Shown here piece by piece: positions 5,712-41,438 of a stretch of 46,621 bases of DNA. The stretch comes from a virus. Where the stretch lies: positions 1 to 46,621 of IMG/VR virus record IMGVR_UViG_3300044713_000028; one strand, written 5' to 3'. The notes under the pieces were generated by a model that worked only from the letters and a program-made list of their open reading frames with translations, was not told where the DNA came from and did no database searches. Numbering within the stretch: the first letter of the stretch is position 1; the number at the start of each line of letters is the position of its first letter. The position numbers and the translations under genes were made by a program.

Positions 5712-6034
5712 ACCAGAGAGAGCTATTGCCAGCGCATTGCAGAGTTAAATTTCGTGGGAAGGCCTACTGGTACAATGAGTCGGCCGCTAACCTGGGAGCG
5801 AAACTGTCGCCTCTCTCACACTTCGATGCGGACGGAAACTTCCAAGAAGGGAACGCGATAGCTGATGGATTACTCTACTACGCAGTCATCAAGGATGGGG
5901 AAATTAAGCGGTTCGGAAAGGTCATAGGGAACGCGATAGCTGATGGATTACTCTGCTACGCAGTCATCAAGGATGGGGAAATTAAGCGGTTCGGAAAGGT
6001 CATAGGCAGCGTCTGCGAACTGGAGCGCTTATGA
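5708..6034 (+). CDS. Hypothetical protein with internal 26-aa tandem duplication
   Basis: 108 aa from the ATG at 5708 (ATGA overlap). Residues 48-73 (starting GNAIADGLL) are repeated at 74-99 with a single Tyr-to-Cys change. The unit is a short beta-rich segment ending KRFGKVI. No family recognised. The duplication keeps the frame, and the downstream overlap with the next gene is intact, so the gene appears functional. Confidence 0.6.
   Translation: MNQRELLPAHCRVKFRGKAYWYNESAANLGAKLSPLSHFDADGNFQEGNAIADGLLYYAVIKDGEIKRFGKVIGNAIADGLLCYAVIKDGEIKRFGKVIGSVCELERL
5849..6004 (+). repeat. Perfectly in-frame 78-bp tandem duplication
   Basis: Copies 5849-5926 and 5927-6004 differ by one base (A to G in the tenth codon). 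77 of 78 bases are identical, including synonymous positions, so the duplication is recent. Confidence 0.95.
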
Positions 6035-14894: not shown

Positions 14895-15301
14895 ATTTCA
14901 AAGCCACAGCATCAGCGATGCCGGTCAACACGGCAGCCGTCATGGGCAAGATTCGCGCGGCGGTTCAGTTGTCGGTAGAACAGGCTTGCGAAATCATAAC
15001 CGAGGAAGCGCAGGCGATCGTACCTGTCAAGACCGGCGCACTCCGCGAAAGCATCGGCTGGACGACCGACGAACAGTCTGGCATGATCGTAGGCACCGTG
15101 AGCGCAAAGGTGCCATACGCTGGCTATATCGAATTTGGGACCGGGAGGCGCGGCGCCGCAAGCCCAGGCGCCGGTCCGTACCCGTACACGATGACCTGGC
15201 CGGGGATGGTGGCGCAGCCGTTTATGCGGCCAAGCGTAGATACTGCGCGGGAGTCCGTAAAGCAGGTATTCATAGATAACGTGGCATTGGCCCTGAAATA
15301 G
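14891..15301 (+). CDS. HK97 gp10-like tail-connector protein
   Basis: 136 aa, GTG start coupled. PVKTGALRESI (about 46-56) and PYAGYIEFGTGRR (about 77-89) are the two signatures of the HK97 gp10 family, which joins head and tail. Ends inside the last codons of the minus-strand HNH gene. Confidence 0.85.
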   Translation: MNFKATASAMPVNTAAVMGKIRAAVQLSVEQACEIITEEAQAIVPVKTGALRESIGWTTDEQSGMIVGTVSAKVPYAGYIEFGTGRRGAASPGAGPYPYTMTWPGMVAQPFMRPSVDTARESVKQVFIDNVALALK

Positions 15302-15749
15302 GATCTGCGTATCGCTCAGGCCGTCGCCTTCTGTCTGATTCAGCCTCGCATGTTCGGCATGTACGCCTAGGATTCCCGTTTTTCTGTATTCTGACCCGGG
15401 TGTTTCGTTCTGTATACGGATGGCCCTTGGCGCAATGCGTGCGATCCAACAGATGTTTACCGGCATTACCGCGGCGCACGTTCTCCAGGTGCGTGACTAG
15501 TTCCATATGGTCACAGTTTACGCACGGACGATAACGGCAAAGGTGATCCGGCTCTAAGCCCTTAGGGACTGGACCACGCTGGACGGTCCAAGCGGCTCGC
15601 GGATTTCGCATTGGGCGTCCGTCGATCCAAAACTTGCCGTACCCGTTGTTAAGGTGACCTGTCCACTCCCAGCATCCGCTAGACAGGACGCGGACATGGG
15701 ACATGAATCTATCGAGTGTGGTTTTAAAGCTATACTGATTATTAGCCAT
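15270..15749 (-). CDS. HNH endonuclease, minus strand (no. 1)
   Basis: 159 aa. Carries GCWEWTG at 25-31, LEPDHLCR at 65-72 (Asp68, His69, Cys71) and CVNCDHMELVTH at 76-87 (His81), the HNH core, followed by a second zinc unit (HCAKGHPY...CRTC). The residue usually His before Arg in this family reads NPR here. Shine-Dalgarno GGAGAAG lies about 10 nt before the ATG and the promoter at 15822-15850 is its own. Its last 32 nt overlap the convergent gp10-like gene. Likely a mobile free-standing endonuclease. Confidence 0.85.
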   Translation of the reverse strand: MANNQYSFKTTLDRFMSHVRVLSSGCWEWTGHLNNGYGKFWIDGRPMRNPRAAWTVQRGPVPKGLEPDHLCRYRPCVNCDHMELVTHLENVRRGNAGKHLLDRTHCAKGHPYTERNTRVRIQKNGNPRRTCRTCEAESDRRRRPERYADPISGPMPRYL

Positions 15750-15821
15750 AGCGGTTCTTCTCCAACTGCACTGGTCAGGGCGGCGCGCGCACTGGATATG
15801 CTCGTGTCGCCCGGAAAAGCT

Positions 15822-15850
15822 ATTGTATCACAGCCGCGCCGCAATCTCCA
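15822..15850 (-). promoter_or_regulatory. Minus-strand promoter for the HNH gene
   Basis: Read on the minus strand: TGGAGA, 17-nt spacer, TACAAT (complement of 15822-15827), with TG one base before (TGnTACAAT). The 17-bp core (15815-15831) is identical to that at 538-554. Transcription would run into the HNH gene with a leader of about 65 nt. Confidence 0.6.
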
Positions 15851-22710: not shown

Positions 22711-23313
22711 ATGGCTATTCTGATGTTGAGCATGTCTTTCGGTGGACCAATGATCGCGCTGCTATTGGCGGCTTTTGCCCTTATGTTGGGCGGGATCGTC
22801 TATACCCCTTCGACTTTCCCGATTGGGCTTCCCGCCATAAACACGTATCTGATGATCGGGAATGGGAATAGTCCTGAAACCTTCAATATTATCGCGAATA
22901 TTGGAGATCTCACCGGGCCGTCGATGAGCGGCGCCGTGGTGGATGTGACCAGCCATTCGAGCGCGCACCCGTGGCGCGAGAAACTTGTCACGCTGCTCGA
23001 CACCGGGGATATCACGTTCCCCATCTTCTACATCCCGGCATCGACCGGCGTTATCGGCACGCCAAGTACTCCGTTCGGCCATGACTACGGCGACGGTGGA
23101 ATCACCCAGTTCGGACTTGAGGGCGTCTTCACCTCGCGCGGGCGCACCACAGTGGGCAACCCGTACAACTTCGCCATTCAGTACCCCGACGCCAGCCAGA
23201 CGACGGACTACTTCACCGGCTTCGTGAGCAAGTTCAGCAAGAAGGCTGCGGTGGCCGGCGTGGAACAGGCCGAAGTGACGATCAGCCTTACGGGCATGCC
23301 GACGCTCTCATAG
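22711..23313 (+). CDS. Major tail (tube) protein with hydrophobic N-terminus
   Basis: 200 aa, ATG 6 nt after AGAGGAG. Residues 47-110 (YLMIGNGNSPETFNIIANIGDLTGP...VDVTSHSSAHPWREKL) are the tail tube family signature (Lambda gpV/HK97-like). It forms stacked hexamer rings around the tape measure. The first ~40 residues are strongly hydrophobic (two stretches including IALLLAAFALMLGGIV), which I do not expect in this family; a downstream start would have to be found if they are not translated. Confidence 0.8.
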   Translation: MAILMLSMSFGGPMIALLLAAFALMLGGIVYTPSTFPIGLPAINTYLMIGNGNSPETFNIIANIGDLTGPSMSGAVVDVTSHSSAHPWREKLVTLLDTGDITFPIFYIPASTGVIGTPSTPFGHDYGDGGITQFGLEGVFTSRGRTTVGNPYNFAIQYPDASQTTDYFTGFVSKFSKKAAVAGVEQAEVTISLTGMPTLS

Positions 23314-23334
23314 TTTGGTTGCCGTGGTTAGTTT

Positions 23335-23577
23335 ATGCACCTAGACGCTGGCCATATCGCGATGATGACGGCGATTGCCGGCAAGGGCTTTATCATGCTC
23401 GCCCGCTCGCAGCCGCCGCTGCCAAAGGATGCCGGGTACTTCCGCACTTGGATTCACGATTTCATCCAACAGGCCGCAAGCAACGACGATAAAATCCAGA
23501 ATCCGCACGATTTCGAGAAGGAGAAGCCAGCGCCTAATGAACTTCAAAGCAAATCTGCCGCCGCAGGCGGCATGTGA
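23335..23577 (+). CDS. Hypothetical protein (80 aa)
   Basis: ATG 21 nt after the tail tube stop, without a clear ribosome binding site. Helical first part and a charged end. No family recognised; overlaps the next frame by 41 nt. Confidence 0.45.
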   Translation: MHLDAGHIAMMTAIAGKGFIMLARSQPPLPKDAGYFRTWIHDFIQQAASNDDKIQNPHDFEKEKPAPNELQSKSAAAGGM

Positions 23578-23704
23578 GCACTGCGAAGGTAGCGGCGTTG
23601 AGCCGGGGATGGCCAAACTATGCCGCGTGTGCGGAGGAACGGGCATGAAGCCGGATGATTGCCCATCTGTGCACAAAGGCCAAGAGGAACAGGAGGGGCG
23701 GTAA
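23537..23704 (+). CDS. DnaJ-type zinc-finger-like protein (55 aa)
   Basis: CEHCEGSG and CRVCGGTG form two CxxCxGxG repeats, as in DnaJ/HypA-type zinc domains. Small phage proteins of this type may bind or fold partners. Start at ATG 23537 inside the preceding frame. Confidence 0.5.
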   Translation: MNFKANLPPQAACEHCEGSGVEPGMAKLCRVCGGTGMKPDDCPSVHKGQEEQEGR

Positions 23705-23806
23705 AATAGGGGTAAGTCTCTGAAAGGAGTGGCCCTTGATTCGCGACAAATCAACCTCCCCGCCTATATAGTGTCATGAAAACGTTGCGCTGGCAATAGG
23801 CCGAAG

Positions 23807-23815
23807 TGCTAAAAT
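23807..23815 (+). promoter_or_regulatory. Extended -10 promoter for the structured RNA
   Basis: TGcTAAAAT (23807-23815); a TTGCGC 19 nt upstream of the hexamer (23785-23790) may act as a weak -35. The expected start is about 23822, where the folded region begins. Confidence 0.5.
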
Positions 23816-23821
23816 TTACCT

Positions 23822-24094
23822 TGGGTTGCCGTTGGAGTCCCGGGCGGCGCTTCCGAACCCTTCACGGGCGTTACTGCAAAGCGGAGGCGACTAGTTGTTG
23901 AGGCTGCTGGGCGGAAACCCAGCGGCGAATCGCCGTGAGCGGGGCCTCCTGGGATTAGCCGTCCCAGGGTAAAGAGCCTGAGCCTTTGTCCTAATGGGTG
24001 TGGGCAGGACAAAAGCAGAACCGTTCTCAACAGCCTCAGCTTTAGAGTATACCCTATCGGGAAGGCTCCGTTAAGAGCCCAGGGTATTTCTTTG
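23822..24094 (+). ncRNA. Putative structured non-coding RNA with a pseudoknot
   Basis: About 270 nt without a convincing gene. Stems: GGAGGC/GCCTCC (23883-23888 with 23944-23949); GTTGAGGCTG/CAGCCTCAGC (23897-23906 with 24031-24040, one G-U pair); GCTGGG/CCCAGC (23906-23911 with 23918-23923); GGCG/CGCC (23924-23927 with 23931-23934); TTTGTCCT/AGGACAAA (23985-23992 with 24006-24013). The first two cross each other, giving a pseudoknot. It is framed by its own extended -10 promoter and a terminal hairpin. It does not match group I intron, tmRNA, RNase P or 6S landmarks that I can check by eye. GOLLD- or ROOL-like large phage RNAs are possible relatives but not shown. Confidence 0.55.
24049..24093 (+). 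terminator. Terminal hairpin of the structured RNA
   Basis: ATACCCT/AGGGTAT outer stem (24049-24055 with 24081-24087) and GGCTC/GAGCC inner stem (24064-24068 with 24075-24079), followed by TTCTTTG. Likely rho-independent terminator; a new promoter starts 10 nt later. Confidence 0.6.
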
Positions 24095-24102
24095 TCCGCG
24101 TA

Positions 24103-24111
24103 TGATATAAT
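24103..24111 (+). promoter_or_regulatory. Extended -10 promoter, leaderless start
   Basis: TGaTATAAT at 24103-24111, only 7 nt before the ATG at 24119 and with no Shine-Dalgarno between. The same TGATATAATCCGC string is found at 31634 before another start. Confidence 0.7.
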
Positions 24112-24118
24112 CCGCTCC

Positions 24119-24478
24119 ATGAATACTCCCCTCGGAGATCCTGTCGTAACCATCGACGGGCAGTCCTACACCCTGAAATTCAGCCTTTTGGCCCAATACA
24201 TCGCCGACAAGCGCGGCATCGACGTAATTCCAGAAATCCGCAAGCCGGGACCGGGCAAGTTGGCGCTGACGCTGGATCTGTTCTCGGCGATGGTTTCGGA
24301 CCATTTCGAGAGGTTGGGCAAGCCCATTCCGACCTCGGAATACTGGGCCGGAAAGATCCCGGAAACCGCGATGCCGGAAATCAGCAAAGCCGTTATGTCC
24401 GTTCTGGGAAAATGGCTGGGGCTGCCAGACGGGCCGCAGACAGTCCCGGCGACGGAACAGGCCCCAGCGGTCCAGTAA
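24119..24478 (+). CDS. Tail assembly chaperone, short form (gpG-like)
   Basis: 119 aa from the leaderless ATG at 24119. N-terminal beta strands (PVVTIDGQSYTLKFSLLAQYIA) then helices, as in gpG-type chaperones. Sits between tail tube and tape measure and carries a GGGAAAA slippery site near its end, the standard arrangement for a G/GT frameshift pair that wraps the tape measure. Confidence 0.75.
   Translation: MNTPLGDPVVTIDGQSYTLKFSLLAQYIADKRGIDVIPEIRKPGPGKLALTLDLFSAMVSDHFERLGKPIPTSEYWAGKIPETAMPEISKAVMSVLGKWLGLPDGPQTVPATEQAPAVQ
24406..24412 (+). promoter_or_regulatory. Programmed -1 frameshift slippery site
   Basis: GGGAAAA read as G GGA AAA in the chaperone frame, a canonical X-XXY-YYZ heptamer. 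Slipping by -1 enters the next frame exactly at 24412 and continues to 24849. CTGG/CCAG just after could be a stimulating stem. Confidence 0.8.
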
Positions 24479-24849: not shown

Positions 24850-27196
24850 ATCCGAAGTCATAGGCCGCGTCCAGGTCAAAGTCGAGGGCAATTTTAGCCA
24901 GATGGACGCCGACTTCCAGGCGGCAGTAGCCAAGGGAGTCGCAGGGGGCCAGACGCTCGCTGAAGCCATCCAGAGCGGCATGGCTTCCGTGCCAGGCATG
25001 GCCGAACGTGCTTCGGCTTCCATTGGTGGCATCGGTACGGCGGCTGCGGCGTCTGCCGCGCAAGTCAAGATGCTATCGGCCGAACTGGACGCCACCGGCC
25101 AGAACGTGGCGTATGCCGGTGAAAACTTCGGCAAGTTCGGCGAGCAGGCTGGCGGCAGCATTCGCAGTCTAGTTTCCGAGGTCAGAGTTTTCCGGCAGGC
25201 GTTCATGGCCGTGATGTTGCCGGAAATGATAGGGCACCTCGTCTCAGGCATCGTTGAATTCTTTGAAAAGGAGAACAACGCTCTGCATGAGGCCATGACT
25301 ACATGGCGCGAATTCAACGCATCACTTCAAATAACTGACGCTGAACTGCAGGTTTCAAATGACAAGTTATCTAATCAGATAGCCAAGCTCGAAGGAGTCC
25401 CGCAGAACAATCTAAAACTGGCGCTGGACGAAGCCGCACTGTCGGCCGATAAGCTCGCCCTATCTCTCGATAAAGACAGCGATGAGATGATTAAACTTCT
25501 GGAGAAGTCGAATGCGGACTGGTTCCAGAAGATGTTCGGTACCGCATCGTTGGCACCTTTGGAGGAGGCCCTAAAGCGGATTCAGGATACCATGTCCGGC
25601 GACAAGACAGGCACCGGTCAGGCCATGATGTTACAGCGCGAATATCAGGCCGTGTCGGCTGAACTGGACAGGCTCCAAGAGAAGACGCGGGTGATTTCGG
25701 TGTCCCCCGGTGGGCGGACCATTATCGAAACAACAGTAGGGACACCTGCAGAGATTGCCGCAGCAGAGGCTGCTCTGGCCCACATCCGTGAGCAGGCCCA
25801 GCGGATTTCGGACGAGCAGACGCACGAAAGCCTGACTAGCAAGTTAGGTAAACTGCAACAGGATAACCAAGGGACTGCGGATGCGTTTGCAGAACAGAAC
25901 GAAAAGTTCCGAGAGCAGGCCGAGGCCATAAATGAAGCCGCCGAAGCGATAGAAAAAGAGGCATCCTGGCTCTCCAAGGTCAATGAGATGGCCACGGAGA
26001 CCCCTAAACTATTCGAGGAAATCGAGGCTAAGGGTGGGATCGTGGCAGAAACTCTGCGGCGAATCGCAGAGCAGGCCGCGCAGGTCCCAGCGCAGTTGAA
26101 CACGACAACCGCCGAGTCTCTCATCGCTAAACTCGTCAACGGGCAGAAGGAATTAGACGAACAGTCTCAGCAGTTAGCAAAAACCTTTGATAAAGCGTGG
26201 GACGAGTGGGAAAAAGGAGCGCAGAAGGGAGTAGTCTCAGGAGACGCGATAACAGTCACACTTCAGGAGCGATTGAGTCCGGCAATGTACGCGGCCTATG
26301 CCGACGCGACGCACCTGCGCGAGGCATTCTCGAACCTGCACATCAAAGACGCTGATGAAGAATTGGCTAAGATGGTCGCAAGCTTGCAGATTGTCGCCAG
26401 ACAGGACGGTGTGACAAGCACGGCATTCGTGCAAGGATGGCAGAATTATAGCAAAGCGCTCGCAGCGGCAGCCCAGGAAACCGGCGACTTTCAGCAGAGA
26501 CTCGCGGGCGGCGTCATGACCGAAATACCGTCGATGTTTCAGAGCATCGAGGGCGCGTTGGCGAACGATCTGGTTCACTGGAAGAATTGGAGCCAATCGG
26601 TTATCAACATATTCCAGAGCTTTGCACAAATGGCTCTCCAGACGGTGATGCACGCGCTGTTTCAGCCGCTTCAGCAGATGCTCACGGGCGCGCTGGGTGG
26701 CATCCTTTCAGGCCTATCGAGCGGTGGCGGCATGTATGCCGGGATCGCCAGCGGCGCGATCGGGTTCTTCGCAGAGGGCACAGACTACGTACCGCGCACT
26801 CAGTTGGCCGTGCTGCATGAAGGCGAGCGAGTTGTCACGAAGGAGCGCAACTTTCAGGACCGGCTGGAACAGGGCATCAAGCACCGCGACGTTTACCACC
26901 ACATGCACCGGGCGCTGGAGGGAATTGAGAACGTGCCGCGCATGATGCCGGTGATGTTGGACCCAGGCGAGCGCGTGCTGACCAAGGAATCGAACGACGT
27001 GTTCAGCAAGATGCTCAATACCAGCATGGGCACGGTGCCGTCTGTCGGACCGCAGAGCACCTACCAGAACAGCAGCAACGTGGATCACATCGACATGCGC
27101 GGAGCTACGATCATGGGCATGACGAAAGAGGAACTGGCGAGCACGATATTCGACACTGCGGTGAAGCGCGGAAGGCGAGCGAATGTACGTTGGTAG
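24839..27196 (+). CDS. Tape measure protein
   Basis: 785 aa. Mostly helical and coiled-coil (about 160-400), with hydrophobic stretches near 115-140 (FMAVMLPEMIGHLVSGIVEF) and 600-650 (MLTGALGGILSGLSSGGG). It sets tail length, roughly 0.15 nm per residue or about 115-120 nm, and lies in the tube until infection. Order and size are typical. No lysozyme-like domain seen. Confidence 0.85.
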   Translation: MADESEVIGRVQVKVEGNFSQMDADFQAAVAKGVAGGQTLAEAIQSGMASVPGMAERASASIGGIGTAAAASAAQVKMLSAELDATGQNVAYAGENFGKFGEQAGGSIRSLVSEVRVFRQAFMAVMLPEMIGHLVSGIVEFFEKENNALHEAMTTWREFNASLQITDAELQVSNDKLSNQIAKLEGVPQNNLKLALDEAALSADKLALSLDKDSDEMIKLLEKSNADWFQKMFGTASLAPLEEALKRIQDTMSGDKTGTGQAMMLQREYQAVSAELDRLQEKTRVISVSPGGRTIIETTVGTPAEIAAAEAALAHIREQAQRISDEQTHESLTSKLGKLQQDNQGTADAFAEQNEKFREQAEAINEAAEAIEKEASWLSKVNEMATETPKLFEEIEAKGGIVAETLRRIAEQAAQVPAQLNTTTAESLIAKLVNGQKELDEQSQQLAKTFDKAWDEWEKGAQKGVVSGDAITVTLQERLSPAMYAAYADATHLREAFSNLHIKDADEELAKMVASLQIVARQDGVTSTAFVQGWQNYSKALAAAAQETGDFQQRLAGGVMTEIPSMFQSIEGALANDLVHWKNWSQSVINIFQSFAQMALQTVMHALFQPLQQMLTGALGGILSGLSSGGGMYAGIASGAIGFFAEGTDYVPRTQLAVLHEGERVVTKERNFQDRLEQGIKHRDVYHHMHRALEGIENVPRMMPVMLDPGERVLTKESNDVFSKMLNTSMGTVPSVGPQSTYQNSSNVDHIDMRGATIMGMTKEELASTIFDTAVKRGRRANVRW

Positions 27197-31056: not shown

Positions 31057-31641
31057 ATGTCTAAGAAAATAACTGCCTCTATACAAGAGAGAATCCGTAA
31101 CACGATAGCTATCGACGATTCTGGATGCTGGATTTGGAAGGCATCTGTTGGGCGGTCCGGCTATGGGCGCCTGAGGATGGGAGGAAAGACCCGGGAGGTT
31201 CATCGGCTGGCCTACGAGGCTTATAGGGGGCCGATTCCAGAGGGACTAGAGATAGACCATCTCTGCCGCGTTCGCCGTTGTGTAAATCCCGATCATCTGG
31301 ACTTGGTGACGCACGCTGAAAACGTGCGCCGTGGTCTCGTTGGTTCACGAGAGCGCTCGCGCACGCACTGTCCTTACGGCCACCCCTACGATGAGTCCAA
31401 TACGTACGTGAAGGGCGGCGGACGTCACTGTCGGGCATGCAAGGCGCGTCGTGCGGCCGAAGTAAATCGCCGCAAAGTAGAAGCGAATGCGGCGAAAGGC
31501 CCACGTGTAGCCTGTCGAAGAGGCCATCTGTACGATGTAGAAGCACCAGAAGTTTCTGGATTAAAGCGCTATTGCAAGGTCTGTCAAAAGATGAAAATGC
31601 AGGAATGGCTGGCGCGGCGCAAGTCCGAATGTGTGATATAA
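31057..31641 (+). CDS. HNH endonuclease (no. 3) with two zinc modules
   Basis: 194 aa from ATG 31057. HNH core: GCWIWKA at 23-29, EVHRLAYEAYRG at 47-58 (His49), LEIDHLC at 64-70 (Asp67, His68), CVNPDHLDLVTH at 75-86 (His80). Then two zinc units, HCPYGHPYD...CRAC and CRRGHLYD...CKVC. The upstream codons back to TTG 31021 are the promoter itself, so the ATG is chosen. Sits between tail-tip and secreted-protein genes; probably mobile. Confidence 0.85.
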   Translation: MSKKITASIQERIRNTIAIDDSGCWIWKASVGRSGYGRLRMGGKTREVHRLAYEAYRGPIPEGLEIDHLCRVRRCVNPDHLDLVTHAENVRRGLVGSRERSRTHCPYGHPYDESNTYVKGGGRHCRACKARRAAEVNRRKVEANAAKGPRVACRRGHLYDVEAPEVSGLKRYCKVCQKMKMQEWLARRKSECVI

Positions 31642-31642
31642 T
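31634..31642 (+). promoter_or_regulatory. Extended -10 promoter of the secreted-protein operon
   Basis: TGaTATAAT at 31634-31642 inside the last codons of the HNH gene, 6 nt before ATG 31649. No -35 or Shine-Dalgarno is obvious. Same string as at 24103. Confidence 0.65.
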
Positions 31643-31648
31643 CCGCGC

Positions 31649-32347
31649 ATGCGGCTATTGGCGCTTTGCGCGGTGCTCACGGGGATAGCGGCGGCGCAGT
31701 ACAGCCCGCCAGGCGGAGGCGGCAGCGGGGCGGGAGTTTCCAGCGTCCACGGCACGGCCAACCAGATCAGCACCAGCGGCAACACCGGCAGCGTAACCCT
31801 CAGCGTGCCGAGCCCGTTCGGAGTCGGCCCGAGCGCGCCAGCGATAGATGCCTTCACGGGAAATGCTGGGTCGATAGCCCAAAGCCTTGGGACCGTGACC
31901 GGATCATGCGATCCCGGGACAATGCTCATCGCCGGGAACTCCGGGACGAATCAGGCTGAAATTTGTGTAAATGGATCAAACTTCGTTCCTCTCCAGCCCT
32001 ACCATTCCATCAGTTTCCAGCTTGTGCCGAGCGCTACCGGCGACCAGGGCGTATACGCGGCGTTCCCTTTTGCCTGTAACGCCATTCTCGGGTGGACGAT
32101 AGCCTCCCAGAGCGGCACTTCCGGCTCGATCAGCATCTCGCTTTACAAGGCAAATGGCGCGATTCCGACGACTGGCAGCACGCTTGTGACAGCATCGGCG
32201 CCGATCGTGCTTTCTTCCGCAAATTGGAATTCGAGCACGTCGGTAGGCACCTGGGTAACAGCCATCGCTCCGGGAGATACGTTTCTGTTCGACGTCACGT
32301 CATATTCCACGCTCACCGGCGTGAATGGGACGGTGTACTGCCAATGA
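31649..32347 (+). CDS. Secreted beta-rich protein (232 aa)
   Basis: Residues 1-16 are a short Sec-type signal (RLLALCAVLTGIAAAQ), followed by a Gly-rich linker and a Ser/Thr/Gly beta domain (SISFQLVPSATGDQGVYAAFPF...). Likely tail-associated adhesin or exported protein. First gene after a leaderless promoter; ATGA-coupled to the next. Confidence 0.6.
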   Translation: MRLLALCAVLTGIAAAQYSPPGGGGSGAGVSSVHGTANQISTSGNTGSVTLSVPSPFGVGPSAPAIDAFTGNAGSIAQSLGTVTGSCDPGTMLIAGNSGTNQAEICVNGSNFVPLQPYHSISFQLVPSATGDQGVYAAFPFACNAILGWTIASQSGTSGSISISLYKANGAIPTTGSTLVTASAPIVLSSANWNSSTSVGTWVTAIAPGDTFLFDVTSYSTLTGVNGTVYCQ

Positions 32348-41006: not shown

Positions 41007-41299
41007 GCGCATCTAAACGGAAGTACGTTATCGTAAGAACCTATTCGGCGGGGTGTTTCGCCGGATTCCTGGAAAGCAGGAAGGGTAAGGAGGTGGTGCT
41101 AAAAGGCGCGCGCCGATTGTGGTATTGGGCGGGGGCGGCTTCGCTTTCGCAGCTTGCCCAGTCAGGCACCAGCAAGCCTGCGGAGTGCAAGTTTCCAGAG
41201 CCGGTTTCGAGGATCACGCTAACTGAGGCCATTGAGATTCTGGACGCGACCGGAGTAGCGCAAAAATCCATCCAAGGTGTAGCGGTATGGCGCGCGTAG
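41003..41299 (+). CDS. DUF6948-like protein (98 aa)
   Basis: ATGA-coupled. YVIVRTYSAGCFAGFLESRKGKEV, ARRLWYWAGAASLSQLA and IEILDATGVAQKSIQGVAVWRA match a small phage family I know as DUF6948, often followed by Gly-rich repeats. Function unknown. Confidence 0.75.
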   Translation: MSASKRKYVIVRTYSAGCFAGFLESRKGKEVVLKGARRLWYWAGAASLSQLAQSGTSKPAECKFPEPVSRITLTEAIEILDATGVAQKSIQGVAVWRA

Positions 41300-41436
41300 G
41301 CTACGGCGACGGCTCCGGCTCCGGCGACGGCTCCGGCTACGGCTCCGGCTCCGGCTCCGGCTACGGCTCCGGCTACGGCTCCGGCTCCGGCTCCGGCTCC
41401 GGCTACGGCTCCAGCTACGGCTACGGGAAGGGATAA
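41287..41436 (+). CDS. Gly-Ser/Gly-Tyr repeat peptide (49 aa)
   Basis: ATG 41287 overlaps the end of the previous gene. After MARV almost every residue is Gly, Ser, Tyr or Asp in GS, GY and GD dipeptides (about 20 units). Low-complexity, likely flexible or phase-separating. Similar tails are common next to or on DUF6948-like proteins. Confidence 0.6.
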   Translation: MARVGYGDGSGSGDGSGYGSGSGSGYGSGYGSGSGSGSGYGSSYGYGKG

Positions 41437-41438
41437 CA

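Follow-up and report, generated by a model that had tools for sequence, protein, structure and literature searches.

A conserved structured RNA in a putative accessory insert between two tail genes of a phage

Our analysis of a 46,621-nt stretch of DNA (here referred to as the window), assigned to a phage by its terminase, portal, capsid and tail matches, revealed that the region from 23705 to 24118 specifies a structured RNA. This conclusion was drawn from comparative evidence, since folding energy alone was insufficient. We consider it probable that the region encodes a conserved, noncoding RNA that has its own transcription unit, acts in trans and belongs to an accessory insert between tail genes. 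The RNA would measure no less than about 230 nt, with 270 to 330 nt as the probable length. The features of the locus are listed in Table 1.

The stretch had been described in the initial annotation as gene-free, and a comparison with the phage's own codon usage agreed with this: all six frames of 23705-24118 scored negative, that is, as noncoding, and the surrounding genes, both small open reading frames (ORFs) of the insert included, scored positive in the same test. Folding energy was dropped as proof of an RNA. With a z score of about −2.2 on either strand it was ordinary for this window, in which several coding stretches folded further below their shuffles than the RNA stretch did.

Homologues were sought by searching viral contigs for a 16-base junction segment as an exact pattern. 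This search yielded 54 hits, 2 of which, here called L055 and L090, were similar to the window far past the pattern (78% over 71 to 87 nt, E value of about 1e-11); the match scored 62 bits, versus 28 bits for the best shuffled control. Both originate from phages clearly distinct from that of the window, G001 and G002 (48 and 50 kb), the former of which has a few distant proteins in common with it. Two covariance models, R1 and the longer R2, were then built from L055 and L090 alone, with the window left out, and both located the RNA in the window (E values of 1.5e-21 and 5e-23, respectively). In the phage records searched, R1 matched at three places only, namely, the window, L055 and L090. The 5′ stem of the window was placed only roughly by R2; a conserved UAGUUG is directly preceded, in both the window and its relatives, by an 8-bp stem, the sequence of which differs greatly between them. 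BLAST searches of phage records and Escherichia coli collections gave no match to the RNA stretch, two other RNA patterns found nothing in viral contigs, and a 17-mer pattern produced 36 hits in bacterial genomes, none of them homologous outside the motif. Similarly, R1 found no credible copy across about 1,935 genomes from seven bacterial phyla, a search run with stricter filters and lacking a cellular positive control, and its single weak match in bacterial genomes (E value of 0.0048 per one genome, with many broken pairs) was judged to be chance. This may mean that the family is restricted to phages or that the sampled genomes did not include its hosts.

The comparison of the three members bore out the structured RNA that had been proposed from the window. 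In the model-fitted alignment, 96.8% of the cells were paired, compared with 33 to 54% when one side was slid, and 11 of the 31 pairs, spread over four of the five helices, had changed on both sides with pairing kept, a count matched by none of 500 shuffles. A model-fitted alignment leans to structure; P2, P3 and P4 were recounted on a plain MAFFT alignment, in which they were 100% paired with five compensatory pairs, and the slid versions gave 0. As the family has three known members, two of which are approximately 95% alike across the conserved part, this covariation represents essentially one divergence. The conserved helices upheld the proposed multistem fold in part, whereas two strong local stems of the single-sequence fold, CUGGG/CCCAG (23907-23922) and GAGCGG/CCGUUC (23937-23942 with 24021-24026), were not kept in the relatives. 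Candidate pseudoknot partners, CCCA and UGGG, occur in all three members; they are invariant and hence uninformative on covariation. Two longer segments, UGAGCGGGGCCUCCUG and CAGGGUAAAGAGCCUGAGC, were identical in all members, while the neighboring stems varied. One of these segments contains the search pattern, and its identity therefore arises partly by selection; the other was unselected. Invariant segments beside changing stems are what a functional RNA surface, either binding or catalytic, would be expected to show.

Upstream of the conserved RNA, L055 (1056-1150) and L090 (5120-5200) carry two further 5′ hairpins, which show compensatory changes between these two loci and have no clear counterpart in the window. 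The RNA of L055 and L090 may therefore be about 450 nt long, with the 5′ hairpins possibly forming a domain missing from the window.

Table 1. Features of the insert and its RNA (positions in the window)
Feature	Position	Strand	Remarks
Insert between major tail protein and next tail gene	23314..24118	+	Versus sister phages L001-L003
Small ORF, 80 aa	23335..23577	+	Without family; positive coding score
CxxCxGxG zinc-finger-like ORF, 55 aa	23537..23704	+	Weak DnaJ central domain match, below Pfam cut-off
Candidate promoter GCGACA-18-TATAGT	23743..23772	+	Consensus match only; TATAGT at 23767-23772
Extended −10 of the initial annotation, TTGCGC-19-TAAAAT with TG	23785..23815	+	Not reported by the 16-18 spacer scan
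Conserved RNA, extended model R2	23834..24062	+	E=5e-23
Long-range closing helix	23838-23843 with 24057-24062	+	R2
5′ stem	23848-23855 with 23882-23889	+	R2
Conserved RNA core, model R1	23892..24047	+	E=1.5e-21
P1	23897-23906 with 24031-24040	+	4 compensatory pairs
P2 hairpin CGGCG-AAU-CGCCG	23923..23935	+	3 compensatory pairs; relatives GGCUG-AUU-CAGCC
Invariant segment UGAGCGGGGCCUCCUG	23936..23951	+	
P3 (GGCCU/AGAGCC)	23943..23978	+	Invariant; stacked on P4
P4 hairpin CCUGGGA/UCCCAGG	within 23943..23978	+	2 compensatory pairs; relatives CCUGCGG/CCGCAGG
Invariant segment CAGGGUAAAGAGCCUGAGC	23965..23983	+	
P5 hairpin UUUGUCCU/AGGACAAA	23985..24013	+	Relatives GCUUCC/GGGAGC
Terminator-like hairpin AUACCCU..AGGGUAU, tail UUUCUUU	24049..24094	+	Weak
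Putative extended −10 promoter TGATATAATCCGC	24103..24115	+	Leaderless-like; 7 bp before chaperone ATG
Tail-assembly chaperone-like gene	24119..24478	+	Downstream of RNA; named from position; no family hit

The RNA lies within 805 bp that separate the gene for the major tail protein (MTP; end at 23313) from the next tail gene (ATG at 24119). In three sister contigs (L001-L003), the same two tail genes abut, approximately 20 bp apart with nothing between them, so that the junction there consists of two whole genes. The flanking proteins of the window are 69% (MTP) and 60% (chaperone) identical to those of the sisters; the intervening region had no DNA similarity to these contigs, and a search with R1 found no copy of the RNA elsewhere in their records. 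The 805 bp would have been gained here or, less simply, lost from the sisters. They comprise the 80-amino-acid ORF, the 55-amino-acid zinc-finger-like ORF and 414 gene-free bases; relatives of the 80-amino-acid protein were not found in viral contigs, nor did an MTP profile find relatives in bacterial genomes. In G001 and G002, the RNA is located near early genes (RecT, DUF1064-like, PAPS reductase-like and DNA methylase), away from tail genes, and its neighbors differ in all three phages. Because it is missing from the sister phages and its neighbors differ between phages, the RNA appears to be an accessory, portable unit that forms the last part of the insert between the tail genes, and the sisters' lack of it at this place suggests that it is dispensable for tail assembly. 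The differing neighbors also make it likely that the RNA is transcribed separately, as implied by its earlier description as a stand-alone unit and, together with its absence from the sisters, they point to action in trans rather than in cis.

The transcription signals proposed for such a unit fared unevenly. The letters of the extended −10 element, TGCTAAAAT at 23807-23815, are present; however, its −35-like TTGCGC lies 19 bp away, and TATAGT at 23767-23772 is an equal candidate start. Moreover, this element may be inside the transcript, as it lies 3′ of a hairpin, GCGCUGGC, that may be conserved. The terminator hairpin is weak: the terminator scan of the stretch reported none, and the local hairpin was no better than shuffles (z score of −1.1). 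Simple scans found no promoter or terminator on the RNA strand of L055 and L090 either. The new promoter assigned to the chaperone was retained: it is well formed (TGATATAAT) and recurs before the gene at 31649. An exact 13-base repeat, TGATATAATCCGC, is found in the window at 24103-24121 and 31634-31651, in each case just upstream of an ATG codon with only a few bases between, and both sites may represent leaderless-type promoters.

The RNA had been annotated as a large phage RNA of unknown class, and the covariance model search proposed as a check was consistent with this. Rfam 15 had no match at gathering score in the whole window, its ROOL and GOLLD models included, and no relevant one in L055 or L090; even at E values of ≤10, the region 23600-24300 returned just two snoRNA-type hits, far below the cut-off. 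ARAGORN found no tRNA gene in the window, where Rfam likewise had no tRNA or tmRNA match, and a description of this RNA family was not found in the literature. A likeness of GGUAAAGAGC to RNase P was dropped, as no model matched, and a similar 24-mer in the tape-measure gene at 26044 was judged to be chance. With homology to L055 and L090, compensatory changes in the shared stems and no Rfam match, the RNA is best regarded, as far as the sequences go, as defining a new family of RNAs, of which three members are known.

The same data bear on readings other than a trans-acting RNA. A cis-acting leader, attenuator or riboswitch-like, would control the downstream gene, that is, the tail chaperone here and small ORFs in L055 and L090, whose ribosome site lies some 50 to 60 nt past the RNA. 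The RNA is indeed upstream of, and on the same strand as, a gene in all three phages, and in the window its 3′ end can pair either with the 5′ end or locally as the terminator-like hairpin. However, whereas a leader would be expected before a related gene in most members, the genes downstream of the three members are unrelated, the chaperone is preceded by a promoter-like site of its own, 7 bp upstream of the ATG, and the sister phages have the same chaperone without the RNA, which makes such a leader unlikely. It is distinctly unlikely, in our view, that the RNA is a ribozyme or what is left of a mobile element (intron-like, or a transposon guide RNA) moving between phages. An accessory insert, sites that differ between phages and a complex fold with invariant segments would all suit such an element, but group I and II introns, HEARO and known ribozymes had no Rfam match even at E values of ≤10. 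Furthermore, no host gene is interrupted, the RNA sitting between complete genes, and the insert contains no transposase or nuclease gene. A hit to a Pantoea plasmid (E value of 6e-4) covered 36 bp of an IS3-type transposase reading frame, did not extend and was judged to be chance. The ordinary folding energy and the promoter-like sites would also agree with a regulatory DNA region or a degenerate gene in which the hairpins arose by chance; given the compensatory changes across distinct phages and the noncoding frames of the stretch, this reading is strongly disfavored and very improbable.

Among known systems, the window RNA can be compared with phage accessory inserts ('morons'), which likewise are extra units among conserved tail genes and missing in sister phages. 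The product of a moron is usually a protein, whereas the final part of this insert is a structured RNA. Known phage-encoded regulatory sRNAs act mostly by short base pairing. They too are phage-encoded RNAs from gene-free stretches (PMC12197685), but what is conserved here is a multistem fold with invariant segments. ROOL and GOLLD are large structured RNAs of phages and prophages (PMC12286853), and the likeness is at most an analogy: all are phage-carried structured RNAs tied to no single protein family. In contrast to the window RNA, however, ROOL and GOLLD are far longer (GOLLD frequently exceeds 800 nt), are represented in Rfam and often lie near tRNA genes, of which the window has none.

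As to function, a trans-acting RNA would be transcribed alone from its own unit, its invariant segments would provide a surface for binding or catalysis, and the RNA would bind a protein or ribonucleoprotein (RNP) during infection. The most likely role that we infer is that of a scaffold or decoy, produced during infection, to which a protein or RNP binds. A bolder and rather doubtful proposal is that the RNA represents a phage RNA machine of a new class, either a catalytic RNA or an RNA-protein particle, exchanged as an accessory unit directed against the bacterial host or used to take it over. ROOL and GOLLD, which are orphan structured phage RNAs, proved to form large assemblies made of RNA alone (PMC12286853), which makes any further family a candidate for a novel RNA function. 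The present RNA is short enough for in vitro synthesis, and its two invariant segments are obvious targets for mutation.

Several other features of the window were observed. In a second gene-free stretch (528-676), an extended −10 element (TGATACAATAGCTTTT) precedes three strong hairpins (z score of −3.9); this stretch may be a further structured RNA or a leader. An HNH_3 endonuclease gene (15270-15840) on the minus strand, opposite to the direction of its neighbors, is preceded by a second copy of the TGATACAATAGCTTTT promoter at 539, the two forming an inverted repeat, and looks like a free-standing homing endonuclease. In addition, a 78-bp tandem duplication with 99% identity is located at 5848-6003, and the right-hand part of the genome contains a tandem repeat of GGCTCC/GGCTAC units at 41299-41438.
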